NCBI GenBank assembly: GCA_016787725.1
Contig: JAEUTZ010000002.1
Span: 1 to 64,000, forward strand
Reading direction: 5' to 3'
DNA from: Cyclobacteriaceae bacterium
GTDB taxonomy: Bacteria; Bacteroidota; Bacteroidia; Cytophagales; Cyclobacteriaceae
DNA: 64,000 nt
The notes under the pieces are model-generated. The model worked only from the letters and a program-made list of their open reading frames with translations, did not search any database and was not told the DNA's origin. Of this stretch, positions 754-4,698 are shown piece after piece. The stretch's first letter is position 1. Every line of letters starts with the position of its first letter. The position numbers and the translations under genes were made by a program.

Positions 754-1137
754 ATGAATCTGATTTTGAAGAGTACTTTAGATGATTATGGAATTCCTGT
801 ATTAGGAATAGTTATCAACGAAAAAACATTTCCTGCTGCAATAGATACAGGATCAACAGGAAATGTTATGAGACCGGACATGGTAAGTATTTTAGATTTG
901 GGTGCGCCAGATAGATTCACGAAAGCATCAAATCCTATGCACGGTTCTTTTAAACCACCTACTTATTATATTGAATATCGCTTGGAGGGTAGAGATGATG
1001 TCACTTTTCGTGACCCCTTTATTGTCATGTCTACTCAAGATTATCCCTATCCTTTTTTGCTTGGATGTGATTTTCTTATAAAAACCAAATCCTTCACTAT
1101 TTACGGATTGGAAAGGACATTTGAGGTCTTTCTTTAA
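754..1137 (+). CDS. Single-domain retropepsin-like aspartic protease
   Basis: A 127-residue protein with the two hallmarks of a retroviral-type aspartyl protease subunit: the catalytic loop AIDTGSTGNVM at about residues 29-39 (Asp-Thr-Gly-Ser) and a C-terminal FLLGCDFL at about 101-108, matching the hydrophobic-hydrophobic-G-x-D-x-L motif of the family. Retropepsins act as homodimers with one Asp per subunit, and a single domain of this length fits that. There is no signal peptide or membrane anchor, so it should be cytoplasmic. ATG 754 is the first usable start after an in-frame stop at 721-723. Substrate and role are unknown. Confidence 0.75.
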   Translation: MNLILKSTLDDYGIPVLGIVINEKTFPAAIDTGSTGNVMRPDMVSILDLGAPDRFTKASNPMHGSFKPPTYYIEYRLEGRDDVTFRDPFIVMSTQDYPYPFLLGCDFLIKTKSFTIYGLERTFEVFL

Positions 1138-1974: not shown

Positions 1975-2095
1975 TTGGCGGTTGCTTGCCGGGCATTTGC
2001 CTATGGCATCCGGTGCGCTAATAATTGCGTAATGTGGCAAAACACGCAACTTTGACATTGGCGGTTGCTTGCCGCAATTTCCTATGGCATCCAGT
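1975..2095 (+). repeat. Long direct repeat, copy 1 (partner at 2201-2320)
   Basis: About 120 bp, nearly identical to 2201-2320 (three substitutions and a small indel by eye), offset by exactly 226 bp. Inside it a shorter unit beginning TTGGCGGTTGCTTGCC occurs at 1975 and 2058, 83 bp apart. A stem TTGCGT...ACGCAA lies between the two units. It is too short and too stop-rich to encode a protein. Confidence 0.85.
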
Positions 2096-2200
2096 GCAAG
2101 CGCGGGACATATCGAAAAAATCAGCAACTCCAAACTAAAGTGGCTTAAGCGGCTTAAGGCGCTACCGTGGCATAGTTTGTAACCAATTTTGACAGTGGCA

Positions 2201-2320
2201 TTGGCGGTTGTTTGCCGGGCATTTGCCCATGGCATCCGGTGCGCAAATAATTGCGTAATGTGGCAAAACACGCAACTTTGACATTGGCGGTTGCTTGCCG
2301 CAATTTGCCTATGGCATCAG
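2201..2320 (+). repeat. Long direct repeat, copy 2 (partner at 1975-2095)
   Basis: The second copy of the ~120-bp repeat, again built from two TTGGCGGTTG-type units 83 bp apart (2201 and 2284) around the TTGCGT...ACGCAA stem. The near identity of the copies and the identical internal spacing point to a recent segmental duplication of an already repeated unit. About 105 bp of different sequence separates the copies. Confidence 0.85.
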
Positions 2321-3203: not shown

Positions 3204-3245
3204 TTTGGGTTATTTTTCAAATAATATTTGTCACGGATGATCCGT
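3204..3245 (+). promoter_or_regulatory. Candidate promoter and operator of the TAC module
   Basis: AATATTTG at 3223-3230 differs by one base from the Bacteroidota -7 box TAnnTTTG. A TTTG at 3204-3207 could be the -33 element, though the spacing is slightly short. Immediately downstream is a perfect inverted repeat ACGGAT-G-ATCCGT (3233-3245), 27 bp before the GTG start of the toxin gene. Antitoxins of the XRE family commonly bind such dyads and repress their own operon. Confidence 0.4.
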
Positions 3246-3272
3246 TTATCTTATTTTTGACTTAACTTATAA

Positions 3273-3785
3273 GTGAATTTGTACGCAACAATCGTAGAAC
3301 TTTCGCGTTTAGACTTCAATAAGGTCAAATATTTTTCAGTTAAAATTGAAGAAAAAGAACACTCAGAGTTCATGGATTTTCAATTTAGAATGAGGAATTC
3401 CCATCCTACCCAGTTAGGAGAGATGAATGCCTTAATTCGAGAAATAGGCGAAAAATATGGTGCGAACCGAGAGCAATTTAGAGATGAGAGAAAAGCCGAT
3501 GCATTACCACCTGAAACATTCCAGTATTTCGGACTTGATGATCTTGAGCCAGACAACCAATTTGGCTTAAGGCTGTATTGTTTGAGATTATCTGAATCAG
3601 TTGTTATCCTATTTAACGGAGATTTAAAAACTGCACAAAAAGTTGATGACTGCAAAAATTGTAGAGGCCATTTTAAATTAGCCAACCGAATTACATCAAA
3701 AATCGATGATGCTATTGTTCAGAGGCACATCAGGCCTATTTACAAAGATATTATTGGAATTGAAGATTTTGAATTTGAAATATGA
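3273..3785 (+). CDS. HigB/RelE-like toxin of a toxin-antitoxin-chaperone module
   Basis: A 170-residue soluble protein starting at GTG 3273. The segment at about residues 97-124 (LRLYCLRLSESVVILFNG then KTAQK) resembles the strand-strand-Lys core of HigB/RelE/Gp49-type mRNA interferases, where an R-L-Y-x-I/L-R strand precedes V-I-L-F-x-G and K-x-x-Q-K. The N-terminal ~90 residues are an extra domain not typical of the minimal ~100-residue toxins. Its stop overlaps the antitoxin start (ATGA, 4 bp), so the two are translationally coupled. Toxicity is inferred from gene order and the C-terminal pattern; catalytic residues are not certain. Confidence 0.6.
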   Translation: MNLYATIVELSRLDFNKVKYFSVKIEEKEHSEFMDFQFRMRNSHPTQLGEMNALIREIGEKYGANREQFRDERKADALPPETFQYFGLDDLEPDNQFGLRLYCLRLSESVVILFNGDLKTAQKVDDCKNCRGHFKLANRITSKIDDAIVQRHIRPIYKDIIGIEDFEFEI

Positions 3786-4198
3786 AAAAGCGAACAGTTG
3801 AAGATACCTCACTATTCTTTGAGGTATTGAATAACACTCCTCAAGAAAGTAAGAACTATGTCTCCAAGTCATTAGAAATTGTTCATGAAATAATTCTACT
3901 TCTCCGAGAGAAGGATATGAATCAGAAAAAACTTGCCCAGAAATTGGGTAAGACCGAAGCTGAGATTAGTAAATGGTTGAGTGGAACTCATAACTTCACA
4001 ATAAGGACTTTAACATCCATTGAAACTGCTATCAATGAAGAAATAATAGTGACTCCGCATAAAGTACGTAGTAATGCTCTTAAGTATACTACAGCAATCT
4101 ATCGTGCTTCAGTGAATGAGATAAAATCTTGTTTGCATAATGCAGAGAAATATAATATTAAGTCAAAGTCAGAAAGATTAGAACGATCAGCTGCATGA
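3782..4198 (+). CDS. XRE-family HTH antitoxin with C-terminal extension
   Basis: The 138-residue protein has a helix-turn-helix at about residues 47-84 (KKLAQKLGKTEAEISKWLSG, then a recognition and support helix), the HigA/XRE type. A tail of about 48 residues, with KYTTAIYRAS and a basic end, extends past the HTH. In known TAC systems the antitoxin carries a C-terminal chaperone-addiction sequence bound by the SecB-like partner, and this tail is the natural candidate. The gene overlaps both neighbours by 4 bp (ATGA). It should neutralise the upstream toxin and probably autoregulate at the inverted repeat at 3233-3245. Confidence 0.75.
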   Translation: MKKRTVEDTSLFFEVLNNTPQESKNYVSKSLEIVHEIILLLREKDMNQKKLAQKLGKTEAEISKWLSGTHNFTIRTLTSIETAINEEIIVTPHKVRSNALKYTTAIYRASVNEIKSCLHNAEKYNIKSKSERLERSAA

Positions 4199-4698
4199 GT
4201 GAAACTATACAGATAGTCCCTGAAAAAATCAATATACTAGGCATAAAAATTCTTGGCGGGAATATCACATCTGATCCAAATGTTCAAGGTGAGATAATTA
4301 AATCTTACCAAGTTCAATTTGGTGTTACCGATGAGTTGAATTATGATGAGAAAAAATTTAGATTTCTATTTGATGTTAATATTGATGCTTTAGATGAAAG
4401 TGACAATCTAATCGGTGTAAATGGCCAATATAATGTCGAGTTTGTATTCCATATTGAGAATCTTGAATATTATGTTACGAGTGTCGATCATGAGAAAAAA
4501 AATATCATTTTCCATGACATCCTTCCATATACACTTTTAAGTATTGTTTATTCAACATCAAGAGGAATAGTCCTATCCCGCACAACCGGTACAATTCTTG
4601 ACGGTGTTATTTTGCCGGTAATTAATGTGCAAGACCTGATAAAAACACTTGAAGAAGGTAAATCGAAAAAAGCCGAAGCATCAGCCATACAGAAATGA
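4195..4698 (+). CDS. SecB-like chaperone of a toxin-antitoxin-chaperone module
   Basis: A 167-residue acidic protein. Residues about 84-92 (VFHIENLEY) and 106-149 follow the SecB layout: a DILPYTLLSIVYSTSRG helix, as in the SecB YPYAREAISNLVNRG segment, then ILPVINVQDLI, matching the SecB LPPVNF-x-x-L end. Housekeeping SecB is absent from many Bacteroidota, and the placement directly behind a toxin-antitoxin pair, overlapping the antitoxin by 4 bp, fits the TAC chaperones that fold and protect the antitoxin (family known from Mycobacterium Rv1955-1957). The C-terminal 18 residues are a Lys/Glu/Ala tail. Confidence 0.7.
   Translation: MSETIQIVPEKINILGIKILGGNITSDPNVQGEIIKSYQVQFGVTDELNYDEKKFRFLFDVNIDALDESDNLIGVNGQYNVEFVFHIENLEYYVTSVDHEKKNIIFHDILPYTLLSIVYSTSRGIVLSRTTGTILDGVILPVINVQDLIKTLEEGKSKKAEASAIQK

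Follow-up and report, generated by a model that had tools for sequence, protein, structure and literature searches.

PDC-M64 as a Probable Toxin-Antitoxin-Chaperone System of Bacteroidota with a Degron-like Antitoxin Tail

Three overlapping genes of a Cyclobacteriaceae bacterium constitute, in structure and organization, a toxin-antitoxin-chaperone (TAC) system, and all three products match the profiles of PDC-M64, an entry held in the PADLOC library as a phage defence candidate without description. Considered as a whole, the module is very probably a type II TAC, comprising a RelE-fold toxin, a helix-turn-helix (HTH) antitoxin whose degron-tipped tail would depend on a chaperone, and a SecB-like chaperone, with phages as the probable trigger of toxin release. 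The computed evidence consists of the gene anatomy, two predicted folds, synteny, the covariation of the antitoxin tail with the chaperone, a degron-like ending, a palindrome, and the defence neighbours of relatives. TACs are known as a kind of system, and PDC-M64 had already been catalogued without explanation; new in this analysis are the reading of PDC-M64 as a TAC, the candidate degron, the putative operator, and the pattern of chaperone gain and loss. No paper using the name PDC-M64 was found, and the literature searched by title and beginning of abstract yielded no Bacteroidota TAC resembling it.

Gene Organization and Family Assignment

Within the window (the whole 64,000-nt stretch of DNA analysed), the plus strand carries open reading frames at 3273-3785, 3782-4198, and 4195-4698, which encode, in this order, a 170-aa toxin of the PDC-M64 toxin family (RelE/ParE (BECR) fold of the HigB/Gp49 type), a 138-aa HTH (XRE/HigA-type) antitoxin, and a 167-aa SecB-like chaperone. 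Neighbouring genes overlap by 4 bp at both junctions (ATGA at 3782-3785 and 4195-4198), and these coordinates agree with the trio of toxin, XRE antitoxin, and SecB-like genes proposed in the first-pass annotation. The start at 3233 given there did not hold: the toxin frame begins at 3273 with a GTG codon, the first start codon of the open frame and 40 bases downstream of 3233, and a TGA at 3258-3260 closes the frame ahead of it. The stretch 3233-3272 is leader/operator sequence and not toxin coding; translation of the toxin might instead begin at an in-frame TTG, at 3279.

The best E-values of the PDC-M64 profiles are 2e-45 for the toxin, 1e-27 for the antitoxin (PDC-M64C), and 1e-27 for the chaperone. 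Above its cut-offs, Pfam recognizes only the HTH of the antitoxin among the three window proteins (HTH_3, residues 41-86, E 4.4e-8), and NCBIfam gives no match above cut-off for any of them; weak Pfam matches to a zinc ribbon in the toxin and to ATP-grasp in the chaperone fell under the cut-offs and were rejected. As all three proteins match PDC-M64 profiles and many genomes repeat the same gene order, the trio is more than a chance arrangement. In PADLOC, the label 'B' is given to models of the toxin and of the antitoxin alike, and the antitoxin models form two size sets (93-100 and 123-135 positions), which presumably represent versions without and with the chaperone.

The RelE-fold Toxin

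A profile search of PDB sequences with the toxin and chaperone alignments returned nothing relevant, and fold comparisons were therefore needed. The AlphaFold model of the toxin (mean pLDDT 95.4) has the BECR fold with a long C-terminal helix of the RelE/ParE superfamily, HigB/Gp49 type, and residues 17-151 of the model align to HigB 6af4 in structure comparison; Foldseek by itself gave an E of only 8e-3. Above cut-off, the window toxin matches no Pfam family, and 54 toxins searched at E<=0.1 yielded no match to Gp49, HigB_toxin, or any other RelE-family profile. What the model has beyond HigB 6af4 is an N-terminal strand at residues 4-14, a loop spanning about residues 80-98, and small strands at the C-terminus. 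With one added N-terminal strand and no separate domain in the model and its alignment, the extra N-terminal domain that had been attributed to the toxin was rejected. The related suggestion of an unusual or new TAC subtype survives in part: although the toxin family is without a Pfam name, it has a HigB-like fold, bears no extra domain, and already stands in PADLOC as PDC-M64.

Residues E72, R100, and K119, which may form the toxin active site, are invariant in 54/54 aligned toxins. K119 lies directly after strand beta4 of the model and, judging from strand order, would correspond to K95 of M. tuberculosis HigB1 and K92 of S. pneumoniae HigB (named in an excerpt of PMC9098466); the conserved residues are at most suggestive of ribosome-dependent mRNA cleavage. 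A reading in which the RelE-fold toxin lacks catalytic activity and the three genes form only a regulatory operon is highly improbable: HigB2 and HigB3 of M. tuberculosis are reportedly non-toxic though related to HigB (PMC9098466, partial text), which lends that reading some credence, but the invariance of the three residues, if their presumed active-site role is correct, argues against it.

The SecB-like Chaperone and Its Association with the Toxin

The predicted structure of the third product folds like both SecB and Rv1957, a comparison that bears out the SecB-like assignment made from sequence in the first-pass annotation. The window chaperone does not match Pfam SecB (PF02556); among 40 aligned relatives, this profile matches two (best 1.6e-9), two CmdC profiles (PD-T4-9_C) match three and two, respectively, and PDLC04763 matches 38. 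Since the host genome gives no match to Pfam SecB, the window chaperone is probably dedicated to its operon.

Across 395 Bacteroidota genomes (including 14 that supplied seed sequences), the toxin profile matched 63 times in 58 genomes, with two pieces of one gene (G036) counted separately, and the chaperone profile 89 times in 79. For 40 of the 63 toxin matches, a chaperone is encoded no more than 2 kb away on the same strand, downstream of the toxin in 40/40, leaving 23/63 toxin and 49/89 chaperone matches unpaired; pairing required the same strand, and no opposite-strand toxin-chaperone pair within 2 kb occurs among the unpaired matches. Together with the SecB-like fold of the third product, this co-occurrence in other genomes supports the initial call of a probable TAC module.

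The unpaired matches bear on a different account, according to which an ordinary two-gene HigBA-like pair happens to adjoin a SecB-like protein-export chaperone that is generic or unrelated to it. It draws on the 38 of 79 distinct toxin loci that have no chaperone, where toxin and antitoxin can evidently occur alone, and on the 49 SecB-like matches that lack a toxin-family match on their strand at distances up to 2 kb; it is opposed by the 4-bp overlaps, by the position of the toxin upstream of the chaperone in every adjacent pair, and by the presence of a tail in 41/41 antitoxins with a chaperone and of a short end in 34/38 without. It is further opposed by seven inspected loci from the 49 (L110, L113, L117, L118, L123, L125, and L126), four of which have an HTH gene immediately followed by the chaperone and preceded by a small gene. 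In two of these four, L113 and L123, the same SecB-like family comes after a HigB_toxin (PF09907) gene and an HTH antitoxin gene of a different kind, suggesting toxin exchange among Bacteroidota TACs; at L117 and L118, another small gene and then an HTH gene precede the chaperone. Among the remainder, an 85-aa ORF at L110 does match the toxin profile, L125 is a locus cut by the contig end, and no antitoxin was found at the L126 chaperone. Several toxins are thus found in combination with this chaperone family. A HigBA-like pair merely adjoining an export chaperone is very unlikely.

The Antitoxin Tail and Its Covariation with the Chaperone

Antitoxin residues 91-138 (4052..4195, plus strand) form a C-terminal tail past the HTH, which the alignment places at 48 residues, matching the earlier estimate; it is a putative chaperone-addiction (ChAD) region. 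Among the 79 distinct toxin loci, tails measure 29-75 residues (median 43) in 41/41 chaperone-bearing loci, whereas they are shorter than 30 residues in 34/38 chaperone-less loci and 38-54 residues in the other four (Fisher p 9e-17 at a 30-residue cut, a value inflated by relatedness). The underlying table went from 88 rows to 79 after exclusions, nine near-identical toxins being included in those removed. It omits L016, L021, and L043 (same genomes as L003, L004, and L006), L054, L063, L071, and L096 (toxins broken or truncated), L057 (genome and sequence pattern equal to those of L056), and L085 and L087 (contig end close behind the antitoxin); L055, the toxin frame of which is broken, was kept as a 120-residue piece, and the antitoxins of L010, L011, L020, and L022, missed by the search pattern, were assigned by hand.

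On the toxin tree, eight switches of chaperone state are required, at least five of them on well-supported branches; in the five well-supported contrasts, the tail follows the chaperone in three to four and opposes it in none or one (median sign-test p 0.25). So few independent contrasts fall short of significance, and phylogeny therefore weakens the tail-chaperone statistic. The chaperone-addiction role that had been ascribed to the tail is accordingly backed by covariation, of which few contrasts are independent: as far as these sequences indicate, chaperone-linked antitoxins carry a putative ChAD extension that is mostly missing from two-component relatives. The toxins that the tree places nearest to that of the window come from L003 (Runella) and L017 (a Cytophagia MAG, with a toxin 49% identical to that of the window over 161 columns), loci devoid of both chaperone and tail.

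The motif Y[VIT]x[LFVIY] occurs in 25/41 chaperone-linked tails (7.0 expected in shuffles) and in 0/38 chaperone-less tails. Because the window tail does not match it, KYTTAIYRA (4082-4108, plus strand) was placed by eye, at the position where relatives have YVYLG-type strand-like motifs. The four chaperone-less antitoxins with 38-54-residue tails are those of L010, L025, L045, and L051; the first three have lysine-rich ends. Such tails may be left over from a chaperone dependence since lost, or may serve another function.

The Degron-like Ending

The antitoxin terminates in Ala-Ala (4190..4195, plus strand), a putative ClpX-type degron of the form [AV][AVSIMLGC]. Endings of this form are found in 34/41 chaperone-linked antitoxins versus 7/38 chaperone-less ones (p 7e-9, kinship ignored), with 2.1/41 expected from shuffled tails; in controls, they are found in 1/41 toxins, 0/40 chaperones, and 6% of 279 other long ORFs. 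Both this motif and that of the operator were derived from the same 79-locus set, and 14 loci from the chaperone search served as a check (L108 and L109 are identical in sequence, and the chaperone match of L122 has an internal stop). The ending recurs in 11/14 of these further toxin-family loci, which were not used to define the motif, and in 1/5 antitoxins beside the chaperone family at loci without the toxin family. It is absent from 7/41 chaperone-linked antitoxins, and the Runella-type antitoxins L003 and L017 are chaperone-less yet end in LAA. In the TAC of M. tuberculosis, HigA1 ends in a reported ClpX degron, Val-Ala, which lies within the chaperone-binding ChAD (PMC8165232, excerpt), and CmdA of the CmdTAC system is degraded by ClpP once the chaperone leaves (PMC11618068, excerpt); the host of the window module encodes both ClpX and ClpP.

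The Operator-like Palindrome and Upstream Sequence

A 16-bp palindrome at 3262..3277, TTAACTTATAAGTGAA (family consensus TTMACTTWWAAGTKAA), overlaps the GTG start codon and is a putative operator, at which the HTH antitoxin may repress the operon. The exact consensus occurs near the toxin start in 28/41 chaperone-bearing versus 2/38 chaperone-less loci, the consensus having been drawn from the same loci; with at most one mismatch, the counts are 35/41 and 11/38, and dinucleotide shuffles lead one to expect 0.0 exact occurrences and 0.03 or less overall. Outside the derivation set, 9/14 loci contain it exactly; at five loci where the toxin is a different one or is missing, the closest sequence in the 900 nt ahead of the antitoxin departs from the consensus at 3-5 positions.

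Also upstream of the toxin, a perfect 13-nt palindrome, ACGGATGATCCGT, lies at 3233-3245 and adjoins CAAATAATATTTG; neither is present in any relative among the three best upstream palindromes, for which reason they are not claimed as operators. Farther upstream of the module, window 1975-2306 contains a 106-nt direct repeat whose two copies are 97% identical at a spacing of 226, in sequence that is GC-rich and shows no convincing genes, and window 754-1137 encodes a small single-domain aspartyl-protease-like protein (gag-asp_proteas 1.1e-4, under the family cut-off).

Proposed Mechanism and Defence Context

By analogy with characterized TACs, the module would combine RNase activity, chaperone binding, ClpXP degradation, autoregulation, and a phage trigger. 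Its HigB/Gp49-type RelE-fold toxin would most likely cut mRNA on the ribosome; the antitoxin would most likely bind the toxin and repress the operon at the palindrome 3262-3277, and its C-terminal tail would make it dependent on the SecB-like chaperone for folding. With the chaperone on the tail, the antitoxin would be folded, the degron hidden from ClpXP, and the toxin neutralised. Titration of the chaperone would leave the antitoxin to degradation by ClpXP; the titrating agents would probably be freshly synthesized phage proteins, following the example of CmdTAC (a capsid protein; excerpt of PMC11618068) and HigBAC (a lambda tail protein; excerpt of PMC11980606). The freed RNase toxin would stop translation (abortive infection).

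The module is probably accessory, given that its genes have 33-35% GC (versus 46 +- 2.6% for 36 window ORFs of >=250 aa) and that other genes occupy the corresponding place in a same-genus genome. Both features would also fit a mobile addiction module, in line with a TAC serving mainly stress response or self-maintenance and not phage defence, and the two window ORFs tested beside the module, which lies near a contig end, have no PADLOC match. Set against such a role are the cataloguing of the family as a defence candidate by PADLOC and the upstream neighbours tested in relatives, which are often defence genes (BREX, type I/IIG restriction, DRT, AbiZ, and others). The neighbour was taken to be the longest among ORFs of >=150 aa whose end lies no more than 1.2 kb upstream; PADLOC was run on 26 of the 34 such proteins at chaperone-bearing loci and on 20 of the 34 at chaperone-less loci. 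Matches at 1e-10 were obtained at 17/26 chaperone-bearing versus 5/20 chaperone-less loci (p 0.009), or at 16/26 versus 3/20 (p 0.002) once generic helicases (L034 and L068) and GlgB (L095) are removed, fractions that may be too high, as neighbours were picked after many starts had been seen, with close same-strand and large ones first, and that are confounded by selection and by taxonomy, the chaperone-less neighbour group being mostly gut Bacteroidales. The matches at chaperone-bearing loci include BrxC, BrxL, HsdR, HsdS, type IIG, and type II restriction, as well as DRT, AbiZ, HEC-05/06-type, and one UvrD helicase. The upstream neighbour so defined lies on the same strand and within 250 nt at 20/40 chaperone-bearing loci (window omitted) versus 6/38 chaperone-less loci. 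A TAC devoted chiefly to stress response or self-maintenance is a possibility of some substance, albeit an unlikely one, and a phage-triggered TAC is the preferred reading.

Relation to Known Systems and Implications

HigBAC of M. tuberculosis (Rv1955-1956-1957) and E. coli differs from the window system in several respects: the window toxin and chaperone are only 9-14% identical to their counterparts in structural alignments and lack Pfam matches, and the window operon has its own 16-bp operator-like palindrome. CmdTAC (PD-T4-9), an anti-phage TAC of E. coli, likewise has three genes with a SecB-like chaperone, and its chaperone profile provides a weak link (0.0072 for the window chaperone, 2.2e-11 for the best relative). 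However, CmdT is an ADP-ribosyltransferase and CmdA is described as having a pair of helices at its N-terminus and a long unstructured stretch at its C-terminus (PMC11618068, partial text), whereas the window toxin model has a RelE fold and the window antitoxin an HTH_3 domain. The two-component relatives of Runella and gut Bacteroidales share the toxin family and HTH antitoxins (the Runella toxin is 49-51% identical to that of the window, and the host belongs to the same order as Runella), but no SecB-like gene was found in them, and their tails have 10 residues (Runella) or 1-29 (L056-L099 set).

If the proposed reading is true, PDC-M64 gains a testable mechanism as a hitherto unexplained defence candidate, and TACs with HigB-like toxins extend across Bacteroidota. 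The comparison of relatives suggests how chaperone dependence comes and goes, and related pairs with and without a chaperone, such as the window and Runella systems, open the origin of chaperone addiction to direct test. In this regard, it may be asked whether gain or loss of tail and chaperone is sufficient for addiction, and whether the last dipeptide is a protease signal.

Phage-associated and Broken Relatives

Searches of phage records by tblastn with the chaperone, of plasmid records by tblastn with the toxin, and of IMG/VR with a three-sequence chaperone alignment gave no match; IMG/VR queried with a five-sequence toxin alignment gave four loci (L096-L099), in none of which was a chaperone detected. 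On the IMG/VR phage contig of L096, a toxin-family ORF (L096:3501-3905) covers only the first 121 residues, starts at an operator-like palindrome, and lies within a run of large ORFs that by eye resemble phage structural genes; antitoxin and chaperone were not detected. The truncated toxin may be a decoy, a remnant, or an assembly artefact.

A broader and distinctly doubtful synthesis would cast PDC-M64 systems as guardian TACs of Bacteroidota, situated directly behind BREX, restriction-modification, or reverse-transcriptase genes and firing when phage proteins, or an attack on the neighbouring defence, titrate the chaperone off the degron-tipped antitoxin; chaperone dependence would have been repeatedly gained and lost within one toxin family as tail, degron, and chaperone together, and phages would counter with decoys, of which the truncated toxin and operator of L096 would be an example. 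A broken toxin also occurs at L054:3367-4709, where the toxin frame is interrupted and the antitoxin and chaperone beside it are intact.
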